From contig NZ_BJLY01000005.1 of NCBI RefSeq assembly GCF_006538885.1, positions 1 to 64,000 of the forward strand: DNA of 64,000 bases, read 5' to 3'. The position numbers were made by a program, and so were the translations under genes. Below, piece after piece: positions 3,068 to 29,983 of this stretch; position 1 is the stretch's first letter, and every line of letters begins with the position of its first letter. The notes under the pieces were generated by a model. The model saw only the letters and a list, made by a program, of their open reading frames with translations. It was not told the DNA's origin and did no database searches. The stretch is from Gluconobacter roseus NBRC 3990. GTDB lineage: Bacteria; Pseudomonadota; Alphaproteobacteria; Acetobacterales; Acetobacteraceae.

Positions 3068-3072
3068 TGGCC

Positions 3073-12146: not shown

Positions 12147-12449
12147 ATGAAACTTACCCCCCGTGAAAAGGACAAGCTGCTGGTGGCGATGGCGGCAAAC
12201 GTCGCACGCCGCCGGCTGGAACGCGGTGTCGTGCTCAATTATCCGGAAGCCGTGGCCCTCATCACTGATCACGTCGTCGAAGGCGCGCGGGACGGCAAAA
12301 GCGTGGCCGAACTCATGGCCAGTGGCGGCCGTGTTCTGACGCGCGACCAGGTCATGCAGGGCGTGGCCGAAATGATTCATGACGTGCAGGTGGAAGCGAC
12401 TTTCCCCGATGGCACAAAGCTGGTGACCGTTCATGACCCGATACGCTGA
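12147..12449 (+). CDS. ureA: Urease gamma subunit
   Basis: The 100-residue protein matches UreA over its full length: [20 protein letters not shown] at the N-terminus, [11 protein letters not shown], then [10 protein letters not shown] and [17 protein letters not shown] at the end. It is one of three structural subunits of the nickel urease that hydrolyses urea to ammonia and carbamate in the cytoplasm. ATG 12147 follows GGAGCAGGA. The gene overlaps ureB by 17 bp. Confidence 0.98.
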
Positions 12450-12777
12450 ATCCCTCGCCGCCGGGGCCATTCCCGGCGAAATCCTGCCCGCCGAAGGCGA
12501 GATCGCGCTTAACGAAGGCCAGCCGCGCCGGACGCTTCTGGTGACGAATACCGGTGACCGGCCGGTGCAGGTCGGCAGCCACTATCATTTTGCCGAGGTA
12601 AATCCGGCCCTGAAATTCGATCGTGCGCAGGCCAGAGGCTGGCGTCTCGATGTGGCGTCAGGCGGGGCCATCCGTTTTGAACCCGGGCAGGATCGCGAAG
12701 TCACGCTCGTGCCTCTGCGTGGCCTGCGGCGCGTCGTGGGCTTCCGGGGCGATGTCATGGGGAGTGTGGATCAGTGA
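12433..12777 (+). CDS. ureB: Urease beta subunit
   Basis: The 114-residue UreB carries [34 protein letters not shown] (with the conserved histidines) and [13 protein letters not shown]. The only in-frame ATG (12433) gives about 12 residues ahead of the usual IPGEI start and overlaps the ureA end by 17 bp, so translation is probably coupled. An ATT at the IPGEI position would be an unusual alternative start. It joins UreA and UreC in the urease core and abuts ureC. Confidence 0.96.
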
Positions 12778-14480
12778 TGCGTCTTTCCAGACATGACTAT
12801 GCCGGACAGTTCGGCCCCACGGTCGGCGATCGCCTGCGCCTCGCCGATACAGCCCTTCTGGTCGAAATCGAGCGCGACTACACGACCTATGGCGAGGAAG
12901 TCCGCTTCGGCGGCGGCAAGACCATCCGTGACGGCATGGGCCAGTCGCAGGTCACGCGGGCCGAAGGAGCGGCAGATACCGTCATCACCAATGCGGTAAT
13001 CATCGATCACTGGGGGATCGTGAAGGCCGATGTTGCGCTCCGGGACGGGCGGATCGCGGCCATCGGCAAGGCAGGCAATCCCGACATCCAGCCGGGCGTG
13101 GACATCATCATCGGCCCGGGCACGGAAATCATCGCGGGGGAGGGCAAGATCCTGACCGCCGGCGGGATCGACAGCCACATCCATTTCATCTGCCCGCAGC
13201 AGATCGAGGAAGCGCTGGCATCGGGTATCACGACCATGCTTGGCGGCGGCACCGGCCCCGCCACCGGCACGGCCGCCACGACCTGCACACCCGGCCCCTG
13301 GCATCTGGCGCGGATGCTCCAGGCGGCGGAAGCCTTCCCGGTCAATCTGGCGTTCGCGGGCAAGGGCAATGCCTCCCGCCCGGACGGACTGGAGGAAATG
13401 GTACGCGCCGGGGCCTGCTGCCTCAAACTGCATGAAGACTGGGGCTCAACCCCCGCCGCCATCGACTGCTGCCTGAGCGTTGCAGACCGCATGGACGTGC
13501 AGGTCATGATCCATACCGATACGCTGAACGAAAGCGGCTTCGTCGAGGATACGATCGCCGCCTTTCAGGGCCGCACGATCCACGCCTTCCACACGGAAGG
13601 CGCGGGCGGGGGCCATGCGCCGGACATCATTCGCGTGGCAGGCCTGCCCAACGTCCTGCCATCCTCGACCAACCCCACGCGCCCGTTCACCGTCAACACG
13701 CTGGACGAACATCTGGACATGCTGATGGTCTGCCATCACCTGGACCAGCGCGTGCCGGAAGACATCGCCTTCGCCGAAAGCCGCATCCGCCGCGAGACGA
13801 TCGCCGCCGAGGACATTTTCCATGATATGGGCGTGCTTTCGATGATGTCGTCGGACAGTCAGGCCATGGGCCGTGTCGGCGAAGTCCCGCTGCGCACATG
13901 GCAGACGGCCCATAAAATGAAAATCCAGCGCGGCTCTCTGGCCGGGGATGGGGCTGCGGATAATGCCCGGGTAAAGCGCTATATCGCCAAATACACCATC
14001 AATCCCGCCATCTCACATGGTCTGTCCCATGAAGTCGGATCGGTCAAGGTCGGCAAGCTGGCGGATCTGGTCCTGTGGGACCCCGCTTTCTTTGGCGTCA
14101 AACCCGATCTGGTCATCAAGGGCGGCGCCATCGTCTATGCGATGATGGGCGATCCCAACGCCTCGATCCCCACGCCACAGCCCGTGCATGGCCGCATGAT
14201 GTTTGGCGGCTATGGCGGCGCGCTGACCCATACCAGCCTGACCTTCGTGTCACAGGCCGCGCTGGAAGACGATATCGGCAAAAAGCTGGGTCTGCGTCGG
14301 CCGCTCTCGGCCGTTTCGAACGTGCGTGGCGGGATCGGCAAGCGCAGCATGATCCATAACGACGCCATGCCCCATATCGAAGTCGATCCTGAAACCTATG
14401 AAGTGCGGGCTGATGGCGTGCTCCTGACCTGCGAGCCCGCCGATGTCCTGCCCATGGCCCAGAGGTATTTCCTGTTCTGA
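12777..14480 (+). CDS. ureC: Urease alpha (catalytic) subunit
   Basis: The 567-residue UreC binds the two nickel ions. The metal-binding histidines are in [14 protein letters not shown], the carbamylated lysine in CLKLHEDWG, further ligands in [10 protein letters not shown] and [13 protein letters not shown], the flap catalytic histidine in MVCHHLD, and the last aspartate ligand in [14 protein letters not shown]. All are intact, so the enzyme should be active. ATG 12777 shares a base with the ureB stop (TGATG); GTG 12774 is an alternative in the same frame. Urea released by arginase from the convergent operon (16.3-24.4 kb) is a probable internal substrate. Confidence 0.98.
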
Positions 14481-14974
14481 TGACCCAAATCCTGGATATC
14501 CTTCCCGTCGGAAGCTGGCCCGAAGCCGAGGCCAGCGGTACCTTCGCCGCCGATTATGAAGGGCGGCACCGTCGCCGGATGATGCTCACCCTGCAAAACG
14601 GTGAGAAAATCCGGCTGGAGCTGGAACATGCCCGCCTGCTTCAGGCCGGGGAAGGGCTGCGTCTGGAGGACGGGCGCATCATCCGCGTGGAAGCCCTGCC
14701 CGAAGAGCTGATGGAAGTCACCGCCCACAGCCTCCTGCAACTGCTTCAGCTCGCCTGGCATCTGGGCAACCGGCACCTGCCCGCCGCCATTTCGGAACAC
14801 GCCATTCTCGTGCGCCGTGATCACGTCATTGCCGACATGATCCATGGTCTGGGCGGGCATGTGCGCATGGTGGAAGCGCCGTTCGACCCGGAAAGCGGAG
14901 CCTATGCCTCCCGTGCGGGCAACCACGAGCCGCACCACCACGGCGACGTGCACCATCACCACACGCATGACTGA
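14480..14974 (+). CDS. ureE: Urease accessory nickel metallochaperone UreE
   Basis: UreE (164 residues) carries nickel to the UreDFG-apoenzyme complex. The N-terminal beta domain is followed by the metal-binding domain with AWHLGNRHLPA, the conserved histidine block, and DHVIADMIHGLGGHVR. The tail is histidine-rich ([16 protein letters not shown]), the nickel-buffering extension found in some UreE proteins. The start shares one base with the ureC stop. It overlaps ureF by 8 bp. Confidence 0.95.
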   Translation: MTQILDILPVGSWPEAEASGTFAADYEGRHRRRMMLTLQNGEKIRLELEHARLLQAGEGLRLEDGRIIRVEALPEELMEVTAHSLLQLLQLAWHLGNRHLPAAISEHAILVRRDHVIADMIHGLGGHVRMVEAPFDPESGAYASRAGNHEPHHHGDVHHHHTHD

Positions 14975-15653
14975 AACCCCGCTCCCGGAAGCAGGAGCCG
15001 CCTTCCTGCGCCTCCTGTCTTGGGTGTCGCCCGCCTTTCCAACAGGCGGATATGCCTACAGCCACGGTCTGGAATGGGCGGTGGAAAGCGGGGACGTCAT
15101 GGATGTCGCAACGCTTTGCGACTGGATCGGCTGCCTGCTGGAGCACGGCGCGCCGGGCAGCGACCTGATTATCCTTCAGGAAGCCTGGAGCGCCGCGCAC
15201 GACATGCCCCGTCTGCGCGACCTGGCGGAATTTGCCTGCGCCTGCGCCTCATCGCGGGAGCGGTACGACGAAACAGTCTATCAGGGCGAAGCCTTCCTCA
15301 AGGCCGCGTCCGTCTGGCCCGTCACGCCTGATCCGTCCGAACTGCGCGGCACACGCTGGCCTCTTCCGGTCACGCAGGGGCTGGTGTTCCGTCGCGGCGG
15401 TCTGGCGCTGGAACAGGCGCTGCTCTCGGGTGGATACGCCACCATCGCAGCCCTCGTCTCCGCAGCCGTGCGCCTCGTGCCACTGGGACAGACGGACGGC
15501 CTGCACGCGCTGGCCAAGCTGGAACCACGTCTCTCACGCGCCGTGAGTGTTACGGAACACCGGACGCTGGACGATGTCGGGGGCGCGTGCTTCCGCTCGG
15601 ACCTCGCGGCCATGCATCACGAAACCCAGACAACGAGGTTGTTCAGAACATGA
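14967..15653 (+). CDS. ureF: Urease accessory protein UreF
   Basis: UreF (228 residues) is the all-helical partner that bridges UreD and the GTPase UreG. Recognisable blocks are [21 protein letters not shown] near the N-terminus, [18 protein letters not shown] and the C-terminal RLFRT. ATG 14967 is inside the end of ureE; the frame extends upstream to 14844 but that segment is antiphase ureE sequence. The stop overlaps the ureG start by ATGA. Confidence 0.94.
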
Positions 15654-16264
15654 CAAAAGCAAAGCACGGCCCGCTGCGAGTCGGCATCGGCGGACCGGTG
15701 GGGACGGGCAAGACAGCCCTGATGGATGCGCTGTGCCGGACGTTCCGCGACGAGTACAACATCGCCGCCATCACGAACGACATCTACACGCGCGAAGACG
15801 CCGAGTTCCTGACCCGCGCGGGGTCCCTCCCGCCGGAACGGATCAAGGGGATCGAAACGGGCGGCTGCCCCCACACGGCCATCCGCGAAGACGCCAGCAT
15901 CAATCTGGCGGGCATCGCGGAACTGACGGAGCGCTTCGAGGGGCTGGATCTGGTTCTCGTGGAGAGCGGCGGCGACAATCTGGCCGCGACCTTCAGTCCC
16001 GAACTGGCCGACCTGACGATCTATGTGATCGACGTCTCGGCCGGCGACAAGATCCCCCGCAAGGGTGGTCCGGGCATTACCCGAAGCGACCTGCTGGTCA
16101 TCAACAAGATCGATCTTGCGCCTTATGTCGGTGCCGATCTGGGCGTGATGGACCGCGACAGCAAAAAGATGCGCGGCACACGGCCCTTCGTTTTCGCCAA
16201 TATCCGCGCGGGTGAGGGCGTCCCCGCCATTGCCCGCTTCATCATCGAACAGGGCGGGCTCTAA
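15650..16264 (+). CDS. ureG: Urease accessory GTPase UreG
   Basis: UreG (204 residues) is a SIMIBI-class GTPase that drives nickel insertion into urease. The P-loop [11 protein letters not shown] is near residue 15, [12 protein letters not shown] follows, the nickel-binding CPH motif is in [31 protein letters not shown] is intact and the guanine specificity motif is NKIDLAP. It is the last gene of the urease operon and converges on ornithine cyclodeaminase across a 47-bp gap with a hairpin. Confidence 0.97.
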
Positions 16265-16311: not shown

Positions 16312-17382
16312 TCAGGCTTTGTCAGCGCCCTTGGAGCGCTGAAGCATCCCGAACAGATCGCGCGGATCATCCGGATCGGCGAGCATGTCCAGCTTCTCGT
16401 ACAGGCCGGTTGCGTCCAGCTTGTTGCGCACATAGCGCAGGGCCGAGAAGTCCTCGATCGCAAAGCCCACGGAATCAAACAGCGTGATCTGGCTGTCACT
16501 GGCGCGGCCCTTCGCTTCGCCGTTGATGACCTGCCACAGCTCCGTCACCGGATAGTCTTCGGGAAGCTGCTGGATCTCGCCTTCGATGCGCGTCTGCGGC
16601 GGATATTCCGCAAAGATGGAGGACCGCAGCAGGATGTCGCGCTGAAGCTCCGTCTTGCCCGGGCAGTCCCCGCCCACTGCGTTGATGTGAATCCCCGCGC
16701 CAACCATGTTGTCGGACAGGATCGTCGCGCACTGCTTGTCAGCTGTGACGGTCGTGATGATGTCCGCCCCGTCCACGGCCTCTTCACTGCTGTCGCAGAT
16801 CGTGATGTCGAAGCCCTGTCCGCTTAGATTGCGGGCGCATTTCTCCGAAGCCGTCCGGTCCAGATCATACAGGCGCAGGGCGCGGATCCCGACGATCTCG
16901 CGGAACGCCATCGCCTGGAACTCGGACTGCGCACCGTTGCCGATGATCGCCATCGTCTTCGAATTTGCCGGTGCCAGATATTTCGCGGCCATGGCCGACG
17001 TCGCCGCCGTGCGAAGAGCCGTCAGCAGCGTCATTTCGGACAGAAGCGTCGGATAACCCGAAGCGACATCCGCCAGCATGCCGAACGCCGTAACCGTCTG
17101 GAGGCCTTCCTTCGTGTTCTTGGGATGGCCGTTGACGTATTTGAACCCATACAGGCTGCTGTCGCTCGTCGGCATCAGTTCGATGACGCCTTCAGCCGAA
17201 TGCGCGGCCACCCGCGGCGTCTTGTCGAATTCCGGCCAGCGCTTGAAATCGGCCTCAAGATACTCCGCAAGCTCGCGCAGGAAGGTCTCGATCCCGATGG
17301 TGTGGACCAGCGCCATCATGTTCTCGACCGAGACGAACGGCACGAAGGCGAGATGGGACGGGGCGGGGGCGAAGGAAGTCAT
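16312..17382 (-). CDS. Ornithine cyclodeaminase
   Basis: This 356-residue NAD-dependent enzyme of the OCD/mu-crystallin family converts L-ornithine to L-proline and ammonia. Landmarks are LMPTSDSSLYGFKYVNGHP near residue 80 (substrate site), EMTLLTALRTAATSAMAAKY, the Rossmann segment MAIIGNGAQSEFQAMAF and INAVGGDCPGKTEL with the catalytic aspartate. ATG 17382 lies immediately after the arginase stop (TGA-G-ATG); the frame is open to 17424, inside the arginase gene. In the operon it follows arginase, so arginine would pass through ornithine to proline. Confidence 0.93.
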   Translation of the reverse strand: MTSFAPAPSHLAFVPFVSVENMMALVHTIGIETFLRELAEYLEADFKRWPEFDKTPRVAAHSAEGVIELMPTSDSSLYGFKYVNGHPKNTKEGLQTVTAFGMLADVASGYPTLLSEMTLLTALRTAATSAMAAKYLAPANSKTMAIIGNGAQSEFQAMAFREIVGIRALRLYDLDRTASEKCARNLSGQGFDITICDSSEEAVDGADIITTVTADKQCATILSDNMVGAGIHINAVGGDCPGKTELQRDILLRSSIFAEYPPQTRIEGEIQQLPEDYPVTELWQVINGEAKGRASDSQITLFDSVGFAIEDFSALRYVRNKLDATGLYEKLDMLADPDDPRDLFGMLQRSKGADKA

Positions 17383-17383
17383 C

Positions 17384-18307
17384 TCAGTAGGTCCTTGTCT
17401 TGCGTTCGAGAACACGGCGGCCAAAGAGGCTGGCGGCCAGATCGGTCATGAGCAGGGCGGTCTTGGCGCGGACGTCGAGGAACGGGTTGAGTTCCGCCAG
17501 ATCCAGCGACGTCACGAGCCCGCTGTCATGCAGCATCTCCATGATGAGATGCGCCTCACGGAAGGTCGCACCGCCATTGACGGTGGTGCCGACCGCCGGT
17601 GCGATGTCCGGGTCGAGGAAATCCACGTCCAGGCTGACATGCAGGCGGCCATTGGCAGCGCGGACGCGGTCCAGAAAGCTGGTCAGCGGGCCGACAATGC
17701 CCTGCTCGTCAATGGCGCGCATGTCGAAGACGGTGATGCCGATTTCCGCGACATGGCGCTTCTCGGCCTGATCGACGGATCGGATGCCCATCATGCACAT
17801 GTTGCGTGGATCGACGGGCGCGGCAGGCGGCGGAAAGCCCTCGAAGCCGGACTGGCCCGTGAAATAGGCGACAGGTGTGCCGTGCAGATTGCCGCTGGTG
17901 GTCGTGTGCAGTGTGTGCAGGTCAGTATGGGCATCCAGCCACAGGACAAACTGGGGCTGCCCCAGATCCTGCGTGTGGCGAGCGATGCCGGAGACCGTGC
18001 CGGCGGACATGGAGTGATCGCCACCCAGGAAAATCGGGAAATCGCAGGCTTTCGCCATCTCGTAAGCCCGCTCACCGACGCTTTTCGTCCAGGCGATGAT
18101 CGCGTCCAGATTGCGTACGGCAGGGTTGGAGTGGCTCACATCCGGCATCGCGGCGGGCACGGCGTCTCCCACATCCTCAACCTGCCATCCGAGCTCCTGC
18201 AGGATTTCGGGCAGTCCCGCGATGCGAAAGGCCGTCGGGCCCATGATGCAGCCTCTTTCGGAGGTTCCGCTCTGGGTGGGGACTCCCAGAATCTGGCACG
18301 TCTTCAT
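17384..18307 (-). CDS. Arginase
   Basis: The 307-residue protein belongs to the ureohydrolase family and hydrolyses arginine to ornithine and urea with a dimanganese centre. Metal ligands are visible in FLGGDHSMSAG, LWLDAHTDLHT and VSLDVDFLDPDIAP, and the substrate loop has TTSGNLHGTPVAY. The absence of agmatinase-like features and the adjacent ornithine cyclodeaminase favour arginase. It begins 33 bp after the transporter ATPase gene and is followed at once by ornithine cyclodeaminase. The urea it forms can be used by the urease encoded in the convergent operon. Confidence 0.93.
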   Translation of the reverse strand: MKTCQILGVPTQSGTSERGCIMGPTAFRIAGLPEILQELGWQVEDVGDAVPAAMPDVSHSNPAVRNLDAIIAWTKSVGERAYEMAKACDFPIFLGGDHSMSAGTVSGIARHTQDLGQPQFVLWLDAHTDLHTLHTTTSGNLHGTPVAYFTGQSGFEGFPPPAAPVDPRNMCMMGIRSVDQAEKRHVAEIGITVFDMRAIDEQGIVGPLTSFLDRVRAANGRLHVSLDVDFLDPDIAPAVGTTVNGGATFREAHLIMEMLHDSGLVTSLDLAELNPFLDVRAKTALLMTDLAASLFGRRVLERKTRTY

Positions 18308-18340
18308 CTCAACTCCTTTCCGATACTCTGCGCCGGGGCT

Positions 18341-19147
18341 TCAGCCCTGACGCGAAAAATGGCTGACAAACCTGTCGAAGCGCTCATCCATACCGCCTTT
18401 GAACAGGTCCTGCGGGGTACCCTGGACGCGGACGGTTCCTTTTTCCAGAAACACGACCCGGCTTGAGACATCCCGCGCGAACGCCATTTCATGCGTGACA
18501 ATCAGCATGGTCCTGCCCTCGGCCGCCAGATCCTGCATGACTTTGAGCACTTCCCCGACCAGTTCCGGGTCCAGCGCGGAGGTCGGCTCGTCGAACAGCA
18601 GGACGCGCGGGCGCATGACGATGGCGCGGGCAATCGCGACCCGCTGCTGCTGCCCGCCGGAGAGCTGGGACGGATAGTAATCCGCCCGGTTCAGCAGACC
18701 GACACGGTCCAGAGCCTTTTCGGCTTCCTCACGCACCTCGTGGCGGTTGCGTCCCTGAACATGGACCGGGCCTTCCATGACGTTCTGTAACACCGTCCGG
18801 TGGCTCCACAGGCAGAAATTCTGGAACACCATGCCGACCTGCGAGCGCAGGCGGTTGACCTGCCGCGCATCCGCAATCTGCCGCTCTGCGCCTTTCATGC
18901 GGAAACGGACATCCTCGCCCAGCACGTTGAGCGTGCCGCCCGAAGGAACTTCCAGAAGGTTCAGACAGCGCAGGAATGTGGATTTTCCCGAGCCGGAAGC
19001 GCCCAGGATCGAAATCACCTCGCCTTCATGTGCGTCCAGATCAACGCCGCGCAGGACGTGCAGGGCACCATAGCGTTTCGTCAGGCCGGTGGCGCTGATG
19101 ACGGGGGAGGCGGACAGGGCCCCTGTGGCGGACTGGATCGGTTCCAT
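18341..19147 (-). CDS. Polar/basic amino-acid (opine-type) ABC transporter ATPase
   Basis: This 268-residue cytoplasmic ATPase is of the HisP/OccP/NocP type. Walker [10 protein letters not shown] is at residues 49-57, the Q-loop is in [11 protein letters not shown], the signature [14 protein letters not shown] precedes Walker [15 protein letters not shown], and the H-loop is [11 protein letters not shown] 19147 has GGAG six bases upstream; the frame is open to 19234 without a better start. It energises the two permeases encoded just upstream in the operon. It also sits next to arginase, so the imported compound probably contains arginine. Confidence 0.94.
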
Positions 19148-19178
19148 GGAAACTCCGGAAAAGACGGGGGCGTCTGGG

Positions 19179-19862
19179 TCAGACCCGGCGACAGGGTGTG
19201 AGGCGGCGTTCAAGGAGATGGACCCCCGTGGCAATCACGAAGGTCAGGGCAAGATAGATCAGACCCGCAACCGTGAAGATTTCTTCCGAACGATAGGTCT
19301 TCGAGACCAGCCTGTAAGCCAGACCCGTAACATCCATCAGCGTGATCACACTGGCGAGCGACGTCGCCTTCAGCAGCAGGATGGCCTCGTTGCCGTAATT
19401 GGCCAGCCCGTATTGCAGAGCCTGCGGCCAGATGATCCGCCGGCGCAGCAGCAGCCCGGACATGCCCATCGCGCGCGCCGCCTCGATCTCCCGCGGGGGA
19501 ACCGCCGCGACGGCGCCACGGATGATTTCCGCACCATAGGCCGAGGTATTGAGCGAGAGCGCAAGAATGGCGCACCAGTAGGCCTGCTGCAAAAACGGCC
19601 AGGCAAAGGACGCGCGCAGAAAATCGATCTGCCCGAAGCCGTAATAGACGATGAAAATCTGTACCAGCAGCGGCGTGCCCTGAAAGAGCATCACATAAAG
19701 CGCAGCCAGCCAGCGCGCCGGAGCAAACCGGCTCCCGGCTAGGGCAGCGATCCCGACCGCCAGCGCAAACCCCGCGCAGAGCGACGTCGCTGCCAGCCGG
19801 AGGGTCAACGGCACGCCTGTGAGAAGCGTCTTCGCCGTTGCGAAAAGAAAAGGCCAGTCCAT
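19179..19862 (-). CDS. ABC transporter permease (HisM/OccM/NocM type)
   Basis: This 227-residue inner-membrane permease of the polar amino-acid uptake family has about five transmembrane helices. The early segment LFQGTPLLVQIFIVYYG is typical, and the EAA loop that contacts the ATPase reads EIEAARAMGMSGLLLRRRIIWPQAL. ATG 19862 starts 2 bp before the end of the neighbouring permease gene; the frame continues upstream only as antiphase sequence. It pairs with the next permease and the ATPase. Confidence 0.92.
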   Translation of the reverse strand: MDWPFLFATAKTLLTGVPLTLRLAATSLCAGFALAVGIAALAGSRFAPARWLAALYVMLFQGTPLLVQIFIVYYGFGQIDFLRASFAWPFLQQAYWCAILALSLNTSAYGAEIIRGAVAAVPPREIEAARAMGMSGLLLRRRIIWPQALQYGLANYGNEAILLLKATSLASVITLMDVTGLAYRLVSKTYRSEEIFTVAGLIYLALTFVIATGVHLLERRLTPCRRV

Positions 19863-19863
19863 T

Positions 19864-20577
19864 CTATCGCCCCCAGCAGCGTGCAAGACGTTTCTCGACA
19901 GTCCGGATGCCCAGCGCCGTGATCTGCCCCATGACAAGATAAAGCAGCGCGGCCACACCGTAGAATAGCAGCGGCTGCCGTGTCGCGCCGGACGCGATCG
20001 TGGACTGCCGCAGAAGCTCGACAAGCCCGATGATGGACAAAAGCGCCGTTTCCTTCAGCACGGACTGCCAGATATTGCCCAGCGCAGGCAGCGCAAACCG
20101 CAGGGTCTGCGGCGCTATGACCCGCCACAGCAGGACAAAGCTGGACATGCCGCAGGCCTTGCCCGCTTCGATCTGCCCGCGTTCGAGGCGCAGATAAGCA
20201 CTGCGATAGGCCTCGGTCTGATAGGCCCCCGAAACCAGCCCGATGGCCACGACACCGATGATGAACGACGGAAGGGAGAAGAACCCCGGAAACCCCGCCA
20301 GATGCATCAGTCGCGTCAGGGCGAGAGAGCCCCCGAAATAGAAAAGATAGACGACGAGGATCTCCGGAATCCCGCGGAAAACCGTCGTGTAAAAAGTGCC
20401 AATTCCCCGCAGGCTCCGGGACGATGCCAGCTTGAGCGCCGCCCCTGCCGCTCCAAGCAGGCTGCCCAGCGCAAAGCTGCACACCGCCGCCACGAGCGTC
20501 AGCCCGGCCGCCAGCAGCAGGAGCTTCCCCCAGCCTTCCGGACCAAACCCGATGAGCGTGAAGGCCGGTGTGCTCAC
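19864..20577 (-). CDS. ABC transporter permease (HisQ/OccQ/NocQ type)
   Basis: The 237-residue protein has about five transmembrane helices, the HisQ-family motif TTVFRGIPEILVVYLFYFG and the EAA loop QIEAGKACGMSSFVLLWRVIAPQ. It forms the second half of the membrane channel with the preceding permease entry. Its GTG start overlaps the stop of the FAD oxidase subunit (GTGA), which ties transport and oxidation in one transcript. Confidence 0.92.
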   Translation of the reverse strand: MSTPAFTLIGFGPEGWGKLLLLAAGLTLVAAVCSFALGSLLGAAGAALKLASSRSLRGIGTFYTTVFRGIPEILVVYLFYFGGSLALTRLMHLAGFPGFFSLPSFIIGVVAIGLVSGAYQTEAYRSAYLRLERGQIEAGKACGMSSFVLLWRVIAPQTLRFALPALGNIWQSVLKETALLSIIGLVELLRQSTIASGATRQPLLFYGVAALLYLVMGQITALGIRTVEKRLARCWGR

Positions 20578-21719
20578 GCGGCGTCTCCCGCGTTAAAGCG
20601 CCTGCCGCTGAACGGCGCGAGCAACGGATCGACCGTCCCGCTGACCAGAGAGCGCCCCACAACATCGCCCACCGCCGGCGAAAGCTGGAACCCATGCCCG
20701 CAGAACCCGAAGACATGCCACAGATCCGGCGTGCCGTCGCCCGGACCGATCACGGGAATTCCGTCCGGCGTCGCGCCTTCAAGCCCTGTCCATGTCCGCA
20801 GGACCGGCACATGCGCCAGGGCCGGAAACGCCTCAAGCGTGGCGGCCGCGCCCTCGGGCATCCGGTCCATGACGGTAAAGGATGTGTCATGATCCGCGCA
20901 GGGCTTTCCAAGAATGCCCCCGCCGATCACCAGCGATCCGACAGCGCTCTGCTTGAAGGACAGCGGACGGTCGATCCCGATGACCACGGGTTCAAGGAAT
21001 GGCTGCGTCCGCGCCGTGACTATCATGGAAGGGGCCACGACCTTCAGCGGTAGCGTCTGCCCCGCCATGGCCGCCACCTCCGCCCCCCAAGCGCCAGCAC
21101 AGTTGACCAGCACGCCCGCCTCATACTGCCCCGACGATGCCGTAATCGACCATCCGCCGCCCGGCAAACGCTCCAGCCCCAGAACACGGCAGTTCTCGAC
21201 GATCTTTGCGCCCGCCGCCATAGCGGCCTGCCTGAAAGCCCGCGTCGACGCGGCCGGATTGGCATGTCCGTCCCCACGCGAAACAAGCCCGCCCAGAGCC
21301 TGATCCGTCAGACCGGGCAGCATCTTCCGGACTTCCGTGGCGGAGAGAAGCTCTTCCGCCCCCAGTCCCCGCCGTTCCATCTCCTGCACGCGGCCAAGCG
21401 TCCAGGACATCTCCGCCTCATCGAGGGCCACCGCGATCTGCCCGACGCCGAGCCGAACCTCACAGCTTTCCGCAGCCTTCGCACCGATAAGCCGGTCGAG
21501 ATGGCGCCAGTGCTCCATCGCCAGTTCGGACAGCGGATATTCCCGCCAGTCCCGCATCAGCGTCCGCAGGCCCCCGGCATTGACGCTCGAGGCATGGCGT
21601 CCGGCGACATTCTTGTCGAGCAGCGTGACATTCCAGCCCGCACGCGCCAGGAACAGGGCGATCGAACAGCCCTGAAGTCCGGCACCGATAATCAGAGCGG
21701 TTTCATTCTGCCGGGGCAT
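20574..21719 (-). CDS. FAD-dependent oxidase subunit (DAO family), opine oxidase B-like
   Basis: This 381-residue flavoprotein of the D-amino-acid oxidase (DAO) family has the FAD Rossmann motif LIIGAGLQGCSIALFLARAG at residues 9-28, NAGGLRTLMRDWREYPL and the C-terminal FAD loop FGFCGHGFQLSPAVG. Its relatives include the catalytic subunits of octopine/nopaline oxidase (OoxB/NoxB), hydrogen cyanide synthase (HcnC) and D-hydroxyproline dehydrogenase. Context with arginase, ornithine cyclodeaminase and an opine-type transporter supports oxidation of an arginine-derived opine or other N-substituted or D-amino acid. ATG 21719 overlaps the preceding gene by 17 bp. Substrate is inference. Confidence 0.85.
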   Translation of the reverse strand: MPRQNETALIIGAGLQGCSIALFLARAGWNVTLLDKNVAGRHASSVNAGGLRTLMRDWREYPLSELAMEHWRHLDRLIGAKAAESCEVRLGVGQIAVALDEAEMSWTLGRVQEMERRGLGAEELLSATEVRKMLPGLTDQALGGLVSRGDGHANPAASTRAFRQAAMAAGAKIVENCRVLGLERLPGGGWSITASSGQYEAGVLVNCAGAWGAEVAAMAGQTLPLKVVAPSMIVTARTQPFLEPVVIGIDRPLSFKQSAVGSLVIGGGILGKPCADHDTSFTVMDRMPEGAAATLEAFPALAHVPVLRTWTGLEGATPDGIPVIGPGDGTPDLWHVFGFCGHGFQLSPAVGDVVGRSLVSGTVDPLLAPFSGRRFNAGDAA

Positions 21720-23211
21720 CGACCGTATCCTCTGATGCATTTTCGGGCTTGTCTTCAAGTGTCAGCCGGATGGTGGCGCGGGGGTCAAGACCTGACAGCG
21801 CCGCCACCGCCCCGAGCGGGATCGGCCGGATCGGCGGCCGTCCCCGGAATGTCGGCGGGCAATCCGCAGCACGCGTCTCATCCTGAAGCAGCCGTGCCGC
21901 CGTCACCATGCAGCTCCGGCCCTGACACGGCCCCATGCCGCAGCGTGTTTCGCCGCGCAGCGCATCCATGTTCCGAAAGCCCGAGCGGATCTTCGCCCGC
22001 AGATCCCCGGCCGTCAGCTCCTCGCAGCGGCAGACGATCGTGTCATCATCCGGCAGTGCCTGTGCCAGACCGGGCGGAAACGCCGCATCCAGAAAAGGAC
22101 GCACGGACAGCGCCTTGCCAACCGCCCGCAGAGCCTCTGCTGACGGCCCCGCACCGTGATCCAGCGCCGCCAGAATGGCCTGCGCGGCCACTCTGCCATG
22201 TGCCATGGCGGCATCCGCGCCCCCGATCTTCCGGGCATCACCCGTAATACGCAGCACGCACGGCTCTGCGGACATTTCCGGCGGAAGGGTAGAGGCGCCC
22301 AGCCCATCCGGCGTCGTCGCCGGACGCCAGCTCGCATTGGGCCCGTCCCATTGCAGACGCAGCCCGGCCGCATTGGGGATATCGATGGCGGGCACGATCC
22401 CGTCATGGACGATCAGCAGATCACAGGGCAGCGTCCGCCGTTTTCCACCGACCGTAAAGCTCACACTCTCAACGCTCTGCGCTCCATGCGCGGCCAGGTT
22501 CTCAAGCCCCGTCACGGATTTCACACCCGCCAGCTTCAGACGTCCCAGCCAGCCAAGCCCCTTTACAAGCGGTATAAGCCCGTCCGGACGCAGATGCCGT
22601 GCAGCCCGCACATTATCGGAAAGCCGGTCGGTCCGGCCCACCAGCGCCGGTTTGACGCCAAGCTGGTGCAACTGGTTGGCCAGCAGCAGCAGCAGCGGAC
22701 CCGTCCCCGCAAGAACGATATTGCCTCTTGGCTTCAGGTGCCCGGCCTTGAGCAGCGTCTGCACCGCACCCGCCGTCATGACGCCGGGCAGCGTCCAGCC
22801 CGGGAACGGCACGGGCCGCTCCATCGCCCCATGCGCGAGCAGAACCTGCCGCCCCCGCACATATCCGGCGTTCATGCCCTGCAGCCAGCCCACGGTTCCA
22901 TCAGGCCGGACTTCCCACACGGTGGTCTGCGGCCGGTAATCAATACTGGAACAGGCCTTGAAACGTTGGATCAGATCCGCACCTGCCCGATAGGCAGGCC
23001 CCAGCGCGGCCAGAAGGCTCTGGCCTGCGAGGCTCGTGTCGCACAGATTGGCTTCAAGGTTCCGGAAAATCTGGCCGCCGGGCGTGGGCTGCATATCCAG
23101 TACGATGACGGAGCGGCCTGCCTCCGCCAGCTCGACCGCAGCGGTCATTCCGGCAGGGCCGCAGCCTATGATGATGACGTCGGCATCAGGAAGAGGGGCG
23201 TTGATGGTCAT
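21703..23211 (-). CDS. FAD/NAD(P)-binding oxidoreductase subunit with BFD-like Fe-S domain, opine oxidase A-like
   Basis: The 502-residue protein has an N-terminal dinucleotide-binding motif VIIIGCGPAGMTAA (residues 12-25), a second nucleotide-binding region (NIVLAGTGPLLLLLANQL) and, near the C-terminus, a BFD-like [2Fe-2S] domain with VCRCEELTAGDLRA and TRCGMGPCQGRSC. This architecture matches the large subunits of opine oxidase (OoxA/NoxA), HcnB and D-hydroxyproline dehydrogenase. It would pass electrons from the DAO-type subunit encoded downstream to an acceptor. ATG 23211 overlaps the small subunit stop by ATGA. Confidence 0.87.
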   Translation of the reverse strand: MTINAPLPDADVIIIGCGPAGMTAAVELAEAGRSVIVLDMQPTPGGQIFRNLEANLCDTSLAGQSLLAALGPAYRAGADLIQRFKACSSIDYRPQTTVWEVRPDGTVGWLQGMNAGYVRGRQVLLAHGAMERPVPFPGWTLPGVMTAGAVQTLLKAGHLKPRGNIVLAGTGPLLLLLANQLHQLGVKPALVGRTDRLSDNVRAARHLRPDGLIPLVKGLGWLGRLKLAGVKSVTGLENLAAHGAQSVESVSFTVGGKRRTLPCDLLIVHDGIVPAIDIPNAAGLRLQWDGPNASWRPATTPDGLGASTLPPEMSAEPCVLRITGDARKIGGADAAMAHGRVAAQAILAALDHGAGPSAEALRAVGKALSVRPFLDAAFPPGLAQALPDDDTIVCRCEELTAGDLRAKIRSGFRNMDALRGETRCGMGPCQGRSCMVTAARLLQDETRAADCPPTFRGRPPIRPIPLGAVAALSGLDPRATIRLTLEDKPENASEDTVDAPAE

Positions 23212-23513
23212 GGGGCTGACGGCTCCAGGGCGGGAGGCGCACCGGCTTGTCGGCGCACTTTCATGCCGTCGCGCACGGGTGTCAGGCAGGCCTGTCGGTT
23301 GCCGATGCCGTCGATTTCGACGAGGCATTCGAAGCAGTGGCCGATCATGCAGTAGGGCAGACGGGGTGCGCCGGAGACCGGCATCAGGCGGTTATAGGAT
23401 ACCCCGGCGCGCAGCAGGCAGACCGCGACGGTATCGCCGGCGCTGGCTGTAATCGGCTGGCCGTCCAGAAACAGGGTCACCGCATCGGTGATGGGGGCGA
23501 GGGCTGAAAACAT
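23208..23513 (-). CDS. [2Fe-2S] small subunit of the opine-oxidase-like complex
   Basis: This 101-residue protein has a ferredoxin-like fold with VTLFLDGQPITASAGDTVAV and the cluster-binding cysteines in LPYCMIGHCFECLVEIDG followed by RQACLTPV. It resembles HcnA and the gamma subunits of D-hydroxyproline dehydrogenase and opine oxidases. I use ATG 23513 because the conserved domain starts shortly after it and GGGAT precedes it. ATG 23603 (131 residues) would overlap the binding-protein gene by 8 bp and cannot be excluded. It is cotranscribed with the two FAD subunits. Confidence 0.82.
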   Translation of the reverse strand: MFSALAPITDAVTLFLDGQPITASAGDTVAVCLLRAGVSYNRLMPVSGAPRLPYCMIGHCFECLVEIDGIGNRQACLTPVRDGMKVRRQAGAPPALEPSAP

Positions 23514-23595
23514 CTTGGATCCCGGTTGAGGGGAGGGGCTGTGCCCGGCTGCTTCAGACGCGGATGCAGTGGACAGGGAGAAGCAGGTGGCAGGA

Positions 23596-24447
23596 TCATT
23601 CATGGATCGAGATGTCCGTGCCGAACCATTTTTCTGACAGGGCCTGATTGGTGCCGTCACGATTGACGGATGTCAGGGCTGCGTCAAAGGCATTGCGCAG
23701 CGCATCATCATCCGGGCGGAACGCGATATTGGTCGTGTTCGACCCCAGCACCCCGCCCGAGAATGTCGGGCCGGTCATGACGAGCGCCCCTTTGGGGGCC
23801 GCCTCCATCATGGTCCCGAAGGTGGTGACATTGGCGATGGCAATATCGATGCGCCCGGCAATCAGCTCCAGTCCAAGCTGGTCGAGGGAAGGGTATTCCA
23901 TGATTTTCAGGCCCTGAAGATAGGCATCGGCAAACCCCGCCGCCGTCGAGCCCGTTTGCACCCCGATGACCTTCCCGGCCAGGGCAGTCTTCAGCTCGGC
24001 AAGGGCCGCCTGCGCTTCCTGTGGCCCGCGCGTCAGATCAAAGGGCACACCCGTATGGGCCAGACGGGTCAGGGAGCCTGTGCCGGATGTCAGGAAGCCG
24101 TTCGGGGCGCGTGTATAGGGGTGTGAGAACGAGACGACCTTGCTGCGTTCTTCCGTGACGCCCATGGAGGCGATGATGGCGTCGTACTGTCCTACGCGAA
24201 GCCCAGGAATTAGGCCGTTCCAGTCCTGTGTGACGACCTTGCAGGTTGCGTGCATCCGCTGGCAGAGAACCTTCACGAGATCCATTTCATAGCCGGCATA
24301 GGACCCGTCCGGTTTCGCAAAGGCCCAGGGCGGATAGGTGCCTTCCGTGCCAATCGTGATGTGGCGGGGAAGATCGTCTGCGGTGGCAAGGGGCGGAGAG
24401 GCCAGAAGCAGGAACGGAAGGAGCAGACATGTCGCACGAACAGACAT
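23596..24447 (-). CDS. Periplasmic solute-binding protein, opine/basic amino-acid type
   Basis: The 283-residue family 3 binding protein has a signal peptide (about residues 1-23, ending ATA) and the family blocks ITIGTEGTYPPWAF, GYEMDLVKVLCQRM and WNGLIPGLRVGQYDAIIASM. It shares the type of lysine/arginine/ornithine, octopine (OccJ/OccT) and nopaline (NocT) receptors. It captures the substrate in the periplasm for the two permeases. It is the first gene of the leftward operon, divergent from a LysR gene 121 bp away. Confidence 0.9.
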   Translation of the reverse strand: MSVRATCLLLPFLLLASPPLATADDLPRHITIGTEGTYPPWAFAKPDGSYAGYEMDLVKVLCQRMHATCKVVTQDWNGLIPGLRVGQYDAIIASMGVTEERSKVVSFSHPYTRAPNGFLTSGTGSLTRLAHTGVPFDLTRGPQEAQAALAELKTALAGKVIGVQTGSTAAGFADAYLQGLKIMEYPSLDQLGLELIAGRIDIAIANVTTFGTMMEAAPKGALVMTGPTFSGGVLGSNTTNIAFRPDDDALRNAFDAALTSVNRDGTNQALSEKWFGTDISIHE

Positions 24448-24545: not shown

Positions 24546-24558
24546 TAAGCTGAGCTTA
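24546..24558. promoter_or_regulatory. LysR-type operator: T-N11-A palindrome
   Basis: TAAGCTGAGCTTA is a perfect 6+1+6 palindrome with the T-N11-A spacing typical of LysR boxes. It ends 10 bp before the LysR start and lies in the 121-bp region shared with the opine-type operon. It is the probable site for autoregulation and activation of the divergent operon. Confidence 0.6.
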
Positions 24559-24568: not shown

Positions 24569-25450
24569 ATGCAGCCTCATCGTATTCCGTCCCTGAACTG
24601 GCTTCGCGTCTTCGATGCCGCGGCACGGCATCAGAGTTTTGCGTCTGCTGGACGCGAGCTGAACATGTCCGCCGCCGCTGTCAGCCAGCAGATCCTTGCG
24701 CTGGAGACCTATCTCAAGAAGCCCCTTTTCCTGCGCAGTGCCAACAAGGTCAGGCTGACTCAGGAAGGCAATGAGTTTCTTCCTACCGTTCAGGTTTCCC
24801 TCCGGGCCATCGAGGCGAAATCTGCTGCATTGTTTCCCAGACGGGATGTAGAGCGCGTCTCTCTTGTCGCCAGCCAGTTGATGGCAATGAGTTGGCTGCC
24901 GCGGCGCCTGTGCGAGTTTGAAAAAAACCATCCTTCCGTGCGGGTGGACGTCATTATTGAAGACTCCCAGAGGCACCGGGAGCCGGATCTTGCCATCCGT
25001 TTTGATTATGCCATGTCGACACGGGAGCATCCGGGGTGGCTGATGGGGATCAGCCATGTTGTTGTGGGTCAGCCGCAGGATGTGGAGCGGATCACTTCGG
25101 CAAATGATGTCGTCGGTTTCAAGCTGCTTGACGTCAGGTCCCATGCGGTCGGGTGGAACACGTTGCTGGCCCGCTATCCCGGTCTTTCCGACGAGCCTTC
25201 CCTGATGGTGGAATCGGTGGACATGACCCCGCTGGCGCTCATGATGGTCAAGGAAAGTTCGGCTCTGGCTCTTGTTCCTTGGCCTGCGTCCCAGAATCTG
25301 GTGGAAGCGCTGGGGCTGAGTGTCTGCACTGTTCTTCCCGCCATTTCAGGATTGGGAAATTACTATATCGAGCAGTTTTCCGGTCATGGCGTGAGGCCGG
25401 TCATCAGAACGCTGTTCGAAGCGCTGCGTCAGTCCAGCCGGGATTCCTGA
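24569..25450 (+). CDS. LysR-family regulator of the opine-type operon
   Basis: The 293-residue protein has an N-terminal winged helix (residues 8-66, FASAGRELNMSAAAVSQQI as recognition region) and a periplasmic-binding-protein-like effector domain, the GcvA/AmpR-like branch by the SLNWLRVFDAAARHQSF start. It is divergent from the solute-binding gene, the arrangement of OccR and NocR in Agrobacterium opine loci. ATG 24569 has GAGGA directly before it; an in-frame stop six bases upstream rules out a longer start. The co-inducer is unknown and would be the opine or its breakdown product. Confidence 0.9.
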   Translation: MQPHRIPSLNWLRVFDAAARHQSFASAGRELNMSAAAVSQQILALETYLKKPLFLRSANKVRLTQEGNEFLPTVQVSLRAIEAKSAALFPRRDVERVSLVASQLMAMSWLPRRLCEFEKNHPSVRVDVIIEDSQRHREPDLAIRFDYAMSTREHPGWLMGISHVVVGQPQDVERITSANDVVGFKLLDVRSHAVGWNTLLARYPGLSDEPSLMVESVDMTPLALMMVKESSALALVPWPASQNLVEALGLSVCTVLPAISGLGNYYIEQFSGHGVRPVIRTLFEALRQSSRDS

Positions 25451-27736: not shown

Positions 27737-29983
27737 TCAGTTTCCGGGTGTAATGGGCAGGCTGCGGTGGCGCTGGCCTGTGGCATGGAAGATGGCATTG
27801 GCGATGGCGGCGGCTGTTCCGCACATCCCAATTTCGCCTACGCCCTTGACCCCGAGCGGGCTGACTTCCCGGTCTTTTTCCTCGACGAAGAGGACGTCCA
27901 TGTCCGGAATGTCGGCATGGGCCGGGATGTGATACTCAGCGAAATTGTGGTTCATGAAGCGGCCGACGCGTTCGTCCATCAGGGACTCTTCGTGAAGTGC
28001 CATGCCTGTGGCCATCACCATGGCGCCCCGGACCTGACTGGCTGCGGTCTTGGGGTTCATGATGCGACCAGCTGCGACAGCATTGACCAGCCGTGTCACG
28101 CGGACGATGCCGAGTTCTTCATCCACGCGGACCTCGCAGAAGACCGCGCTGTGGGTGAAGCGGGCTTTTCTCATCTGGCTGATGGTGCCGCGCAGGCCTG
28201 GCTTTGCGGTTTCTTCGACTTCAAGCCTGTCCTGACCTGTCAGGGACAGGGCTTCGGAGAGGGACAGTCTGAGATTTTCGTCTGCGTCCTTATCCTGAAG
28301 AAATCCGTCCTGTAGCACTGTGGTATTGTTCGACAGTCCTGCCGTCAGCCAGGCGGAAATGTTTCCGCTTTTGCCCAATGTCTTGAACAGCTTTTCGCGC
28401 AGGCTTTGGCAGGCGAGCCAGACGGCGGCGCCTGCGGAGGCGGCTGTCCATGAGCCGCCTTCCGTCGGGCATTCGGGAAGGGTTGAATCGCCCAGTTCGA
28501 TATCGATCATTTCGATGGGGATGCCGAAGGCTTCCGAGGCGGTCTGGGCCAGAATTGTGTAGGTTCCGGTCCCGATGTCCGAGGCGGCGGTTGCGATATG
28601 CAGGCGTCCGTCTGCTATCAGGGTGGCGCGGGCTGAGGTGGGGGAGAACATTGCGTCCCAGATGCCTGTCGCCATGCCCCAGCCGATCAGCTCTTTGCCG
28701 TCACGCATGCTTTTCGGGGCAATCGGGCGGTTGTACCAGCCGAAACGTTCTGCGCCCTCATGCATGGCCTCTTTCAGCGCCTTGCTGGTCAAGGGCATGT
28801 CATGCATGGCGTCAATGTCGGAATAGTTGTGCAGGCGAAAGGCCAGCGGGTCCATGTTGCAGGCATAGGCCATTTCATCGACGGCCATTTCAAAGAGATT
28901 GACGCCCGTGGCGGCACCGGGAGCACGCATGTCGCTGGAAGTATAGGTGTCACGCGGGGCGACTTTGTAATCGGCCGTGGCGTTAGGGCATTTGTAGTTG
29001 ATCAGGCCCCAGATCACGAGATTTTCCATGTTGTGCTCAAAGCGCGACGTGTCCGTTACGCCATCGACGATCATGGACTGCAACGTGCCGTCCGGCTGGG
29101 CGCCGAGGGCGATGTTCATGACGGCTTCCGGACGGAAAACATGGGTGAACATCTGCTGGCGTGTCAGAGTGATCCGGACCGAGCGCTTGAGCATTTTTGC
29201 GCCCAGTGCTGCGAGAAAGACGTTGTGCTGGGCACGCAGGCCGGAGCCGAACGCCCCGCCGACATAGGGATTGCGTACGCGGACCTGATCTTTTGAAAGG
29301 GACAGGGCGCTTGTCAGATAGGCCTGTACAGCCTGCGGACCCTGTGTCTTGTCCCAGACCGTGAAGGTTCCGTCATCCTCGGCGATGACGGTGGTTGCGT
29401 GCATCTCCATAGGGTTGTGATGCTCGGGGGCCAAATGATAGCGCCCTTCGATTTTGATCGGGCTGAGGGCATAGGCCTCGGCGGCGTTTCCGCGTGATTT
29501 GGGCGGCACGTAATTGCTGCGGGTTTTGCTTGGCATGTATTTCTGGTGCAGGGATGCTTCGAAATCCGCGTTATGCGGCCAGCGTTCGTAATCCACTTCA
29601 AGAAGCATGGCGGCTTCACGGGCGGCTTCGAATGTCTCTGCAAGGACGACGGCAACGGGTTGGCCGTTGAAGCTGATTTCCGCGTCATGGAGTGGTCTGT
29701 AGGGAGAGCCGGGAACGCCCAGACCATCCATGTAGGATTTTTCAAAAAGCGCGCTGTGGGGGCGGTTGAGATGCGTCATGATCTCCACCACGCCCGGCAC
29801 CGCGCGGGCGGCCTCGTCCCGGATTGTCTCGATCCGGCCACGGGCGATGGGGCTGTTGACGATGAAGCCGTATAGCATGCCTGCAGGATGGGGCTCGGCG
29901 GCGTATCGGGCCTGTCCTGTCACTTTGGCGAGGCCGTCGATCCGGGAGACGGGCTGTCCGATTTTTGCTGAATGGAGGGTCAT
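27737..29983 (-). CDS. Molybdenum cofactor-binding subunit of aldehyde oxidase (PaoC/YagR-like)
   Basis: This 748-residue xanthine-oxidase-family large subunit binds the molybdopterin cofactor. It starts with IGQPVSRIDGLAKVTGQARY, carries GGAFGSGLRAQHNVF and AGAATGVNLFEMAVDEMA-like contact regions, and has the catalytic glutamate in GVKGVGEIGMCGTAAA near the C-terminus. With the FAD and Fe-S genes it forms a PaoABC-type oxidase that oxidises aldehydes to acids. It lies 12 bp after the FAD gene and is the last gene of a three-gene operon. Confidence 0.9.
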   Translation of the reverse strand: MTLHSAKIGQPVSRIDGLAKVTGQARYAAEPHPAGMLYGFIVNSPIARGRIETIRDEAARAVPGVVEIMTHLNRPHSALFEKSYMDGLGVPGSPYRPLHDAEISFNGQPVAVVLAETFEAAREAAMLLEVDYERWPHNADFEASLHQKYMPSKTRSNYVPPKSRGNAAEAYALSPIKIEGRYHLAPEHHNPMEMHATTVIAEDDGTFTVWDKTQGPQAVQAYLTSALSLSKDQVRVRNPYVGGAFGSGLRAQHNVFLAALGAKMLKRSVRITLTRQQMFTHVFRPEAVMNIALGAQPDGTLQSMIVDGVTDTSRFEHNMENLVIWGLINYKCPNATADYKVAPRDTYTSSDMRAPGAATGVNLFEMAVDEMAYACNMDPLAFRLHNYSDIDAMHDMPLTSKALKEAMHEGAERFGWYNRPIAPKSMRDGKELIGWGMATGIWDAMFSPTSARATLIADGRLHIATAASDIGTGTYTILAQTASEAFGIPIEMIDIELGDSTLPECPTEGGSWTAASAGAAVWLACQSLREKLFKTLGKSGNISAWLTAGLSNNTTVLQDGFLQDKDADENLRLSLSEALSLTGQDRLEVEETAKPGLRGTISQMRKARFTHSAVFCEVRVDEELGIVRVTRLVNAVAAGRIMNPKTAASQVRGAMVMATGMALHEESLMDERVGRFMNHNFAEYHIPAHADIPDMDVLFVEEKDREVSPLGVKGVGEIGMCGTAAAIANAIFHATGQRHRSLPITPGN

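Follow-up and report, generated by a model that had tools for sequence, protein, structure and literature searches.

A predicted operon for arginine opine use in the acetic acid bacterium Gluconobacter roseus

The stretch of DNA analyzed here (the ‘window’) comprises 64,000 nucleotides of contig NZ_BJLY01000005.1 (assembly GCF_006538885.1) from Gluconobacter roseus NBRC 3990, which has a genome of 2.88 Mb. Its open reading frame (ORF) list contains nine close-packed genes on the minus strand, at positions 16312–24447, and a divergent LysR-type regulator gene on the plus strand (24569–25450). We consider it likely that these genes form an operon through which the bacterium uses an arginine opine, with octopine (N2-(1-carboxyethyl)-L-arginine) or a close relative as the most likely substrate. 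Gene content, gene order, families, cofactor motifs, pocket residues and an operator-like repeat are all features of the sequence itself; the substrate, the direction of flux and the regulation of the operon are what we infer from them.

Gene families were assigned by NCBIfam and Pfam profile searches. Reading leftward from the divergent promoter, the operon encodes a predicted periplasmic opine-binding protein (OccJ/NocT-like, SBP_bac_3; 23596–24447, identified by Pfam, PDB matches and pocket residues), followed by the three subunits of a dehydrogenase: a [2Fe-2S] gamma subunit (OdhC-like, Fer2_4; 23208–23513, identified by Pfam and its cysteine motif, in an ORF that reaches 23660), a flavin adenine dinucleotide (FAD) alpha subunit (OdhA-like, with Pyr_redox_2, BFD-like and SO_alpha_A3 domains; 21703–23211) and a catalytic FAD beta subunit (OdhB-like, DAO family; 20574–21740), the latter two identified by Pfam, trees and motifs. 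Profiles and identity then define two ATP-binding cassette (ABC) permeases of the BPD family, one OccQ-like (19864–20577, 49% identical to OccQ) and one OccM-like (19179–19862, 51% to OccM), and an OccP-like ATPase of the HisP/ArtP type (18341–19147, 61% to OccP). The last two genes encode an arginase (17384–18307; TIGR01229, 311 bits against a cut-off of 228; 73% identical to the pTiC58 noc arginase) and an ornithine cyclodeaminase (ocd; 16312–17382; NF005762, 581 bits against a cut-off of 350; 72% and 70% identical to the occ and noc enzymes). The nine-gene leftward operon with its divergent LysR gene had been proposed in an earlier sequence-only reading of this DNA, and the profile searches bear out the families given there.

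With the starts chosen here, neighboring genes overlap or are separated by at most 33 bp, the one exception being a gap of about 82 bp between the stop of the binding-protein gene and the chosen [2Fe-2S] start. These overlaps and short gaps fit a single transcription unit, as had also been proposed, and the conservation of gene order in orthologous loci indicates that the arrangement did not arise by chance. The ocd gene is convergent with a plus-strand cluster of NicO nickel transporter and ureDABCEFG urease genes (10362–16264; assigned by Pfam, including ureF, except that ureB, at 12433–12777, was identified by eye from the ORF list), which the sequence-only reading did not mention. The G+C content is 64% in both the opine and the urease operons against about 59% on both flanks, which fits acquisition of the two from outside without proving it. 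A TonB-dependent receptor gene (Pfam; 7798–10287) lies directly before the nickel transporter and urease genes; its product might serve nickel or opine at the outer membrane. The Gluconobacter operon is presumably chromosomal; the G. potus copy sits on a 916-kb contig.

The best PDB matches of the binding protein are the octopine-binding protein OccJ (E 1.8e-58) and the nopaline-binding protein NocT (4e-50), followed by an entry named ‘ABC transporter’ (8hqr) and LAO (2e-31); a deoxyfructosyl-amino-acid binding protein is a far weaker match (2e-17). Ten residues make up the octopine signature of OccJ (PMC5740067), and nine of them align with identical residues in the window protein, the sole change being Ser91 to Gly. 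The same nine are found in all 16 binding proteins of its clade (the window's included), where position 91 (OccJ numbering) is Gly in 15 and Asp, in mid-pocket, in that of G. vitians (L059). Four to seven of the ten occur in 23 other binding proteins, of which 16 are homologues (37–42% identical) drawn from 14 of 385 alphaproteobacterial genomes and four are plasmid homologues, the rest being NocT and the E. coli proteins ArgT and HisJ. Left out of the count were a partial sequence (L031), a close relative of L030 (L002) and two short stretches (L018 and L019).

Of the residues that hold the keto-acid part of the ligand, Asn111, Thr163, Ala164 and Asn202 are all present in the 16 clade proteins and in OccJ, whereas the 23 other proteins contain at most one of the four in 22 cases and two in the remaining case. 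This four-residue count was chosen after the data had been seen; the keto-acid signature given in PMC5740067 has five residues, Ser91 included, of which the clade retains four and the best of the 23 others (L127) three. These comparisons were made by alignment alone, since AlphaFold2 models of 12 orthologues had a mean predicted local distance difference test (pLDDT) score of 60, which is insufficient for searching by fold. At three of the four positions in the published nopaline signature (M117, H170 and S207) the window protein has N, A and N, as OccJ does, and the glycine at position 91/97 is NocT-like. The binding protein is linked, as in occ and noc loci, to a Q-M-P importer and carries an opine-type pocket that lacks Ser91; the importer subunits are nearer those of Occ (61/51/49% identity) than those of Noc (57/46/43%). 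A table row for OccJ-S91G in PMC5740067 gives about 20–30 micromolar for its first ligand and no interaction with the next, which from the surrounding text we took to be octopine and nopaline, respectively. We therefore predict that the binding protein recognizes a ligand of the octopine family with lower affinity than OccJ, nopaline being less likely. Of the earlier description of the system as octopine/nopaline-like, the pocket favors the octopine half over the nopaline half.

The three dehydrogenase subunits contain the cofactor motifs of flavin opine dehydrogenases, as defined in PMC4575208: two nucleotide-binding motifs, the gamma cysteine motif (CX4CX2CX12C), an RXW motif and the alpha cysteine motif. 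The spacer of this last motif is 27 residues long, equal to that of OoxA (PMC4575208 prints 15–20), and the pattern as written here has no match in NoxA. That paper distinguishes a type-1 enzyme of P. putida, acting on nopaline, from a type-2 enzyme of B. japonicum, acting on octopine. In our beta-subunit tree the 14 clade rows form one group (support 100/100), separate from a group of 22 type-1 rows that includes OoxB and NoxB (also 100/100), and holding clade and type 1 together is rejected by the approximately unbiased (AU) test (p 0.0156). OoxB/NoxB orthology of the catalytic subunit, a candidate identity raised by the earlier reading, is ruled out by these two results. The clade is instead sister to 11 type-2-like rows, not firmly (94/89) and on its own long branch; ‘type-2-like’ here denotes the best match together with B1-C-A-B2 or C-A-B gene order, and no sequence named BjOdhB2 or BtOdhB and none of the enzymes assayed in PMC4575208 is in the trees. 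In the alpha-subunit tree the clade is again one group (100/100), standing with weak support (82/53) beside 27 other OdhA-type rows, including OoxA and NoxA.

In neither best tree does the clade join the references for hydrogen cyanide (HCN) synthase or D-hydroxyproline dehydrogenase. The HCN references (L113 and L114) are putative, being named by C-A-B order and host with no confirming NCBIfam model, and the AU test does not reject a beta clade joined to the HCN-like rows (p 0.071). The single putative hydroxyproline reference (L102, named for its dihydrodipicolinate-synthase neighbor) falls elsewhere, on a long and weakly placed branch, and no racemase or dihydrodipicolinate-synthase-like deaminase was found by NCBIfam and Pfam among the operon genes, so that neither the grouping nor the gene neighbors of an LhpBEF-type enzyme are present. 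OoxB, NoxB and the hydroxyproline reference are all long branches in the beta tree. The AU group labels were set after a quick tree, apart from clade plus type 1, which was the hypothesis of the sequence-only reading; rows L104 (at 2536), L041 (at 16534) and L115, long or off-family, were then left out of the careful beta tree, as was L101 (split over frames), and L115 and L032 (the latter also divided between frames) were omitted from the alpha tree. In the best trees, the phylogenetic check suggested earlier places the FAD subunits apart from the HCN and hydroxyproline references, and the beta subunit apart from OoxB and NoxB. The window dehydrogenase appears to be a separate lineage, nearest to type 2, though not firmly so. 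We found no report of an assayed member of this lineage, to which the published octopine-using Pseudomonas strains may or may not belong.

The downstream enzymes are close to those of opine plasmids, the arginase being 73% and the cyclodeaminase 70–72% identical to tumor-inducing (Ti) plasmid enzymes, as expected of an occ/noc-type locus. The arginase is the sole arginase-family match in the genome, and one Pro_dh-domain protein is encoded elsewhere, in an open frame of 1228 amino acids, the size of PutA. The opine synthase family PF02317 has no match in the window's genome; control genomes also gave none, so that its absence is not established.

The promoter between the binding-protein and LysR genes is 121 bp long, and an alignment of eight copies from acetic acid bacteria shows it to be strongly conserved. 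It contains the perfect inverted repeat TAAGCTNAGCTTA (24546–24558; TAAGCT-N-AGCTTA, overall T-N11-A), which is kept in all eight. A search of 1.86 Mb of DNA, in which several loci are copies of one place, found 20 exact sites, all in cassette-bearing loci, of which 19 lie in the divergent promoter (about 11 distinct promoters). The remaining one, at 15110 of the Komagataeibacter swingsii locus (L025), is a second exact copy just behind ocd and near the contig end. Among the copies from other bacteria, that of S. yambaruensis (L030) matches the repeat exactly, L027 differs from it at one base, L026, L032, L101 and L002 at two (with both arms changed and symmetry kept in L032 and L101) and Pseudomonas L028 at three; no match within three mismatches was found in the L029 and pRiA4 promoters. 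In the window's genome TAAGCTNAGCTTA is the only site at up to one mismatch, but a reversed control pattern also has one site, and at two mismatches the window would not rarely contain a match by chance (mean 0.41); our argument therefore rests on conservation and position rather than on the number of sites. On that basis the repeat is likely the LysR operator. A promoter scan was uninformative, with one match against 1.3 expected. The LysR protein itself has the GcvA subfamily as its best NCBIfam match, below the cut-off. Its identity is 23% with OccR and 19% with the LysR protein next to nocP; OccR orthology was rejected at this level of identity, and the protein is not of the OccR/NocR type.

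We examined the distribution of the cassette with a pattern-based scan for the alpha subunit, using one genome per species. Among the best 80 of 295 relatives, 14 matched at 56–95% identity (best segment), the next falling to 41%; the nearest named loci are those of G. vitians (95%) and G. potus (94%). The 14 comprise five Gluconobacter, one Acetobacter, one Komagataeibacter and seven Rhizobiales, Rhodobacteraceae or Pseudomonas loci, and share the order of a divergent LysR gene followed by binding protein, [2Fe-2S], alpha, beta, Q, M and P genes wherever the contig allows. Arginase and ocd come next in all six acetic acid bacteria with a long enough contig (L020, L059, L021, L023, L024 and L025), but were not found within 1.8–6.6 kb behind the ATPase gene in L027–L030 and L032 (L026 ends there). 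Among the loci compared, arginase and urease are attached to the cassette only in acetic acid bacteria, with urease adjoining the ocd side in four Gluconobacter loci (L020, L059, L021 and L023) and the LysR side in Komagataeibacter L025, so that the same functions occur in two arrangements; these urease statements for the relatives rest on ureC, ureD, ureE and ureG. Culture-collection strains with the cassette include G. potus R-71646, G. vitians LMG 31484, G. cerinus NBRC 3267 and K. swingsii LMG 22125. In the family at large, five of 397 sampled genomes pass E 1e-90, and the window's genome and two other Gluconobacter are among them. Beyond the LysR gene of the G. potus locus (L020, 5914–7014) lies a second ornithine-cyclodeaminase-like gene, 67% identical to the operon's ocd. 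A second opine-dehydrogenase-like locus of another kind is present in other Gluconobacter species (L156 4601–8550, L157 5590–8879 and L158 6309–8935). Its alpha subunit is of the OoxA/NoxA type and its beta subunit type-2-like, a first beta gene being split over two frames in L156 and short in L157; a search of the window's genome at E 1e-20 did not find this locus.

Within a sample of 26 Gluconobacter genomes the cassette is present in seven, six by a full or near-full alpha match and one (G016) divided between the ends of two contigs. Linkage was not seen in G018, where the contig with alpha is not the one with the arginase, ocd and urease genes. Urease occurs in eight of the 26, namely all seven carriers and G001 (one of 19 non-carriers; Fisher p 1.2e-5, uncorrected for kinship). 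An arginase of the rocF type is found in 11 genomes (any arginase-family match in 14) and the cyclodeaminase family in 13. Four genomes have the rocF-type arginase without the cassette: G001, in which ocd and urease are adjacent and an IS-type transposase gene lies upstream beyond a small ORF; G020, in which ocd adjoins arginase with a ureG remnant behind; G010, in which ocd also adjoins, with another OCD-family gene and an aminotransferase gene upstream; and G025, in which the two genes are apart. The next large genes upstream of the G020 pair, about 1.1 kb off, encode an AraC regulator and an amino-acid permease, the latter being the next large gene on the same strand. This single case suggests that the arginase-ocd pair uses plain arginine, with the cassette as one supplier. 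Urease is probably part of the same functional unit as the opine operon.

A search of a plasmid collection with the beta subunit (E 1e-60) returned nine records, including plasmids of Shinella, R. leguminosarum and Rhizobium sp., a 252-kb A. fabrum plasmid, the root-inducing (Ri) plasmid pRiA4 and CP044124, which is the agropine plasmid pRi1855 (PMC8554961). The pRiA4 cassette (L100, 11266–28735) has the same order as the window's, with 60% identity for the binding protein, 62% for the [2Fe-2S] subunit, 58% for alpha and 60% for beta, followed by Q, M and P, and its binding protein has the same pocket residues; in pRi1855 the binding-protein and beta genes have identities equal to these. The pRiA4 cassette has genes of the RolB and OCD families as neighbors at one end and iaaH at the opposite end, placing it between genes of the TL- and TR-DNA (rolD marks the right end of the transferred DNA (T-DNA) in question, according to PMC5606197). 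Two OCD-family genes beside it are 44–45% identical to a gene near a RolB-family gene of pTiBo542; the OCD-family genes at this position could include an opine synthase. In place of the arginase, ocd and urease of the window, pRiA4 has RidA and then, behind a second LysR gene, a lysine/2-oxoadipate module (2-oxoadipate dioxygenase, aldehyde dehydrogenase, aminotransferase, FAD-linked oxidase and saccharopine dehydrogenase). In R. leguminosarum Ta9k the cassette is followed by an insertion sequence and an ornithine cyclodeaminase gene, and in Pseudomonas L028 by a RidA gene. Such different neighbors downstream give the cassette the look of a portable unit for turning opines into amino acids. 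A 2021 paper on this Ri-plasmid type describes, by its title, ‘a new opine system’, which is reportedly the pRiA4-type cluster.

Comparison with characterized systems places the operon near, but apart from, the Ti-plasmid loci. The occ locus of the octopine Ti plasmid pTi1D1609 (L003) shares with the window a divergent LysR gene, an Occ-type importer, an OdhA/B/C-type dehydrogenase, the cyclodeaminase (72%) and the OccJ-like pocket; its order is importer-B-C-A-RidA-ocd with a type-1 beta subunit, whereas that of the window is binding protein-C-A-B-Q-M-P-arginase-ocd with another beta lineage. No arginase is annotated in the stretch of occ compared, for which the gene table is incomplete, and the distant LysR protein and the adjoining urease are features of the window. 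The noc locus of pTiC58 (L006 and L125) shares the arginase (73%), which is close to the dehydrogenase genes as in the window, the cyclodeaminase (70%) and an Odh-type dehydrogenase; it differs in that its nopaline pocket is absent from the window protein except for Gly97, that NoxB is type 1, and that it also has an NAD-dependent opine dehydrogenase gene and an oxoprolinase pair. The type-1 and type-2 Odh enzymes of P. putida and B. japonicum have the same subunit make-up and cofactor motifs as the window enzyme, and B. thailandensis the same C-A-B order (PMC4575208); the window beta subunit lies outside type 1 and beside the type-2-like B2 subunits. The earlier description of the gene content as occ/noc-like consequently holds for importer, dehydrogenase, arginase and cyclodeaminase, but not for the beta subunit, which is not of the OoxB/NoxB type, or the LysR protein, which is not of the OccR type.

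These comparisons suggest the following pathway. The periplasmic binding protein would catch the opine and the Q-M-P ABC transporter import it, after which the alpha-beta-gamma dehydrogenase, carrying FAD, flavin mononucleotide (FMN) and a [2Fe-2S] cluster, would oxidize the secondary amine to release L-arginine and a 2-oxo acid. Arginase would then convert arginine to ornithine and urea, and the cyclodeaminase ornithine to proline and ammonia; the Pro_dh-domain protein encoded elsewhere may take proline onward towards glutamate, while the adjacent urease would release two more ammonia from the urea. The LysR protein would switch the operon on from one dedicated operator.

The pocket, the 70–73% identity of arginase and cyclodeaminase to their plasmid counterparts, and the orthologous Ri-plasmid cassette all speak for opine catabolism, as the sequence-only reading had proposed. 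Several observations pull in the other direction. Ser91 of OccJ is essential for high-affinity octopine binding, and residue 202, among the nine retained, is not critical (both from PMC5740067); with glycine at 91, as in NocT, lower affinity or a different ligand is possible. The clade is not sister to OccJ in the binding-protein tree, so that the shared pocket is either ancestral or convergent. To these are added the AU rejection of type 1 and the distance of the LysR protein from OccR; no urease was found in 21 kb of the Acetobacter locus (L024), the association between cassette and urease is uncorrected for shared ancestry, and the lysine/2-oxoadipate genes that replace arginase in pRiA4 indicate that substrates may vary within the clade.

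We therefore weighed other substrates. It is rather unlikely that the natural compound is another N2-alkylated arginine and not a crown-gall opine, such as carboxymethyl-arginine or an Amadori adduct of arginine with a sugar, formed in ripening fruit or fermentations, whose substituent would be removed oxidatively with the rest of the pathway the same. The sugar-rich habitat of the host and the additional pocket room left by Gly91 favor such a compound, and noroctopine and noroctopinic acid, the carboxymethyl analogues, bind OccJ about 10-fold better than arginine or ornithine (PMC5740067); an Amadori adduct is disfavored by the conservation of the four pyruvate-holding residues other than Ser91, which a neutral sugar would not need, and by the far weaker match to the deoxyfructosyl-amino-acid binding protein. 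A nopaline-type system, to which the glycine at 91/97 and the arginase near the dehydrogenase genes could point, is improbable given the OccJ-like N, A and N at the nopaline positions and the Occ-like importer, and the type-2 enzyme assayed in PMC4575208 turned over octopine and not nopaline.

Uptake and oxidation of plain or D-arginine appears very improbable. The binding-protein family does include arginine-binding proteins, and the beta subunit belongs to the DAO fold family that holds D-arginine dehydrogenase, but its match to DauA (2e-11) is well below that to chain B of the heteromeric complex 1y56 (7e-30); oxidation of D-arginine would yield 2-ketoarginine, which arginase could not use, and the four extra pocket residues, largely missing from the other binding proteins, have no known role for free arginine. 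We give still less credence to an FAD complex that is a D-hydroxyproline dehydrogenase or HCN synthase with arginine genes as chance neighbors. Such enzymes have the same three-subunit architecture, putative HCN loci share the C-A-B order, and the AU test leaves the HCN grouping unrejected; against this stand both best trees, the missing racemase and deaminase genes, and the presence in one operon of an opine-pocket binding protein, arginase and cyclodeaminase.

Elsewhere in the window, large ORFs at 54158–62621 resemble phage terminase, portal, capsid and tail-sheath genes by eye, making a prophage likely. An amino-sugar recycling cluster lies at 251–6790 (AnmK-, MurQ-, NagA- and NagB-like and GntR genes by eye, with an SSF symporter by Pfam), and a molybdopterin-dependent hydroxylase at 27737–31003 (large subunit by Pfam, FAD subunit by eye).

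Opine catabolic operons are already known, as is opine use by Pseudomonas and others outside Agrobacterium (PMC4432341 and PMC10745273). A link between opines and acetic acid bacteria was not found in the openly licensed PMC papers searched. What is new here is the host group, the separate dehydrogenase lineage, the coupling to urease, the conservation of an octopine-type pocket and of the operator, and the finding that an Ri-plasmid cluster is orthologous. More broadly, and only tentatively, we propose a reading that may well prove wrong: that a third lineage of flavin opine dehydrogenases travels within a cassette of eight genes (for a LysR protein that has its own operator, the binding protein with its opine pocket, the C-A-B dehydrogenase and the importer). 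The cassette would have spread to rhizobia, Rhodobacteraceae, pseudomonads and acetic acid bacteria as well as to Ri plasmids, joined in each to a different amino-acid module; in acetic acid bacteria the partners would be arginase, cyclodeaminase and urease, allowing all the nitrogen of arginine opines to be recovered.

If that proposal is true, arginine opines or close analogues exist in fruit, insect or fermentation habitats that lack crown galls. Opine use is usually described for crown-gall agrobacteria and some soil bacteria; that a minority of acetic acid bacteria should have a complete, conserved and dedicated operon would suggest that sugary, fermented or insect-visited habitats contain an unrecognized natural source of arginine opines. 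Gluconobacter would offer an easily cultured and harmless host for this apparently unassayed class of opine dehydrogenase. As pRiA4 has the same cassette next to T-DNA genes, knowledge of the Gluconobacter substrate could also help to identify a hairy-root opine.

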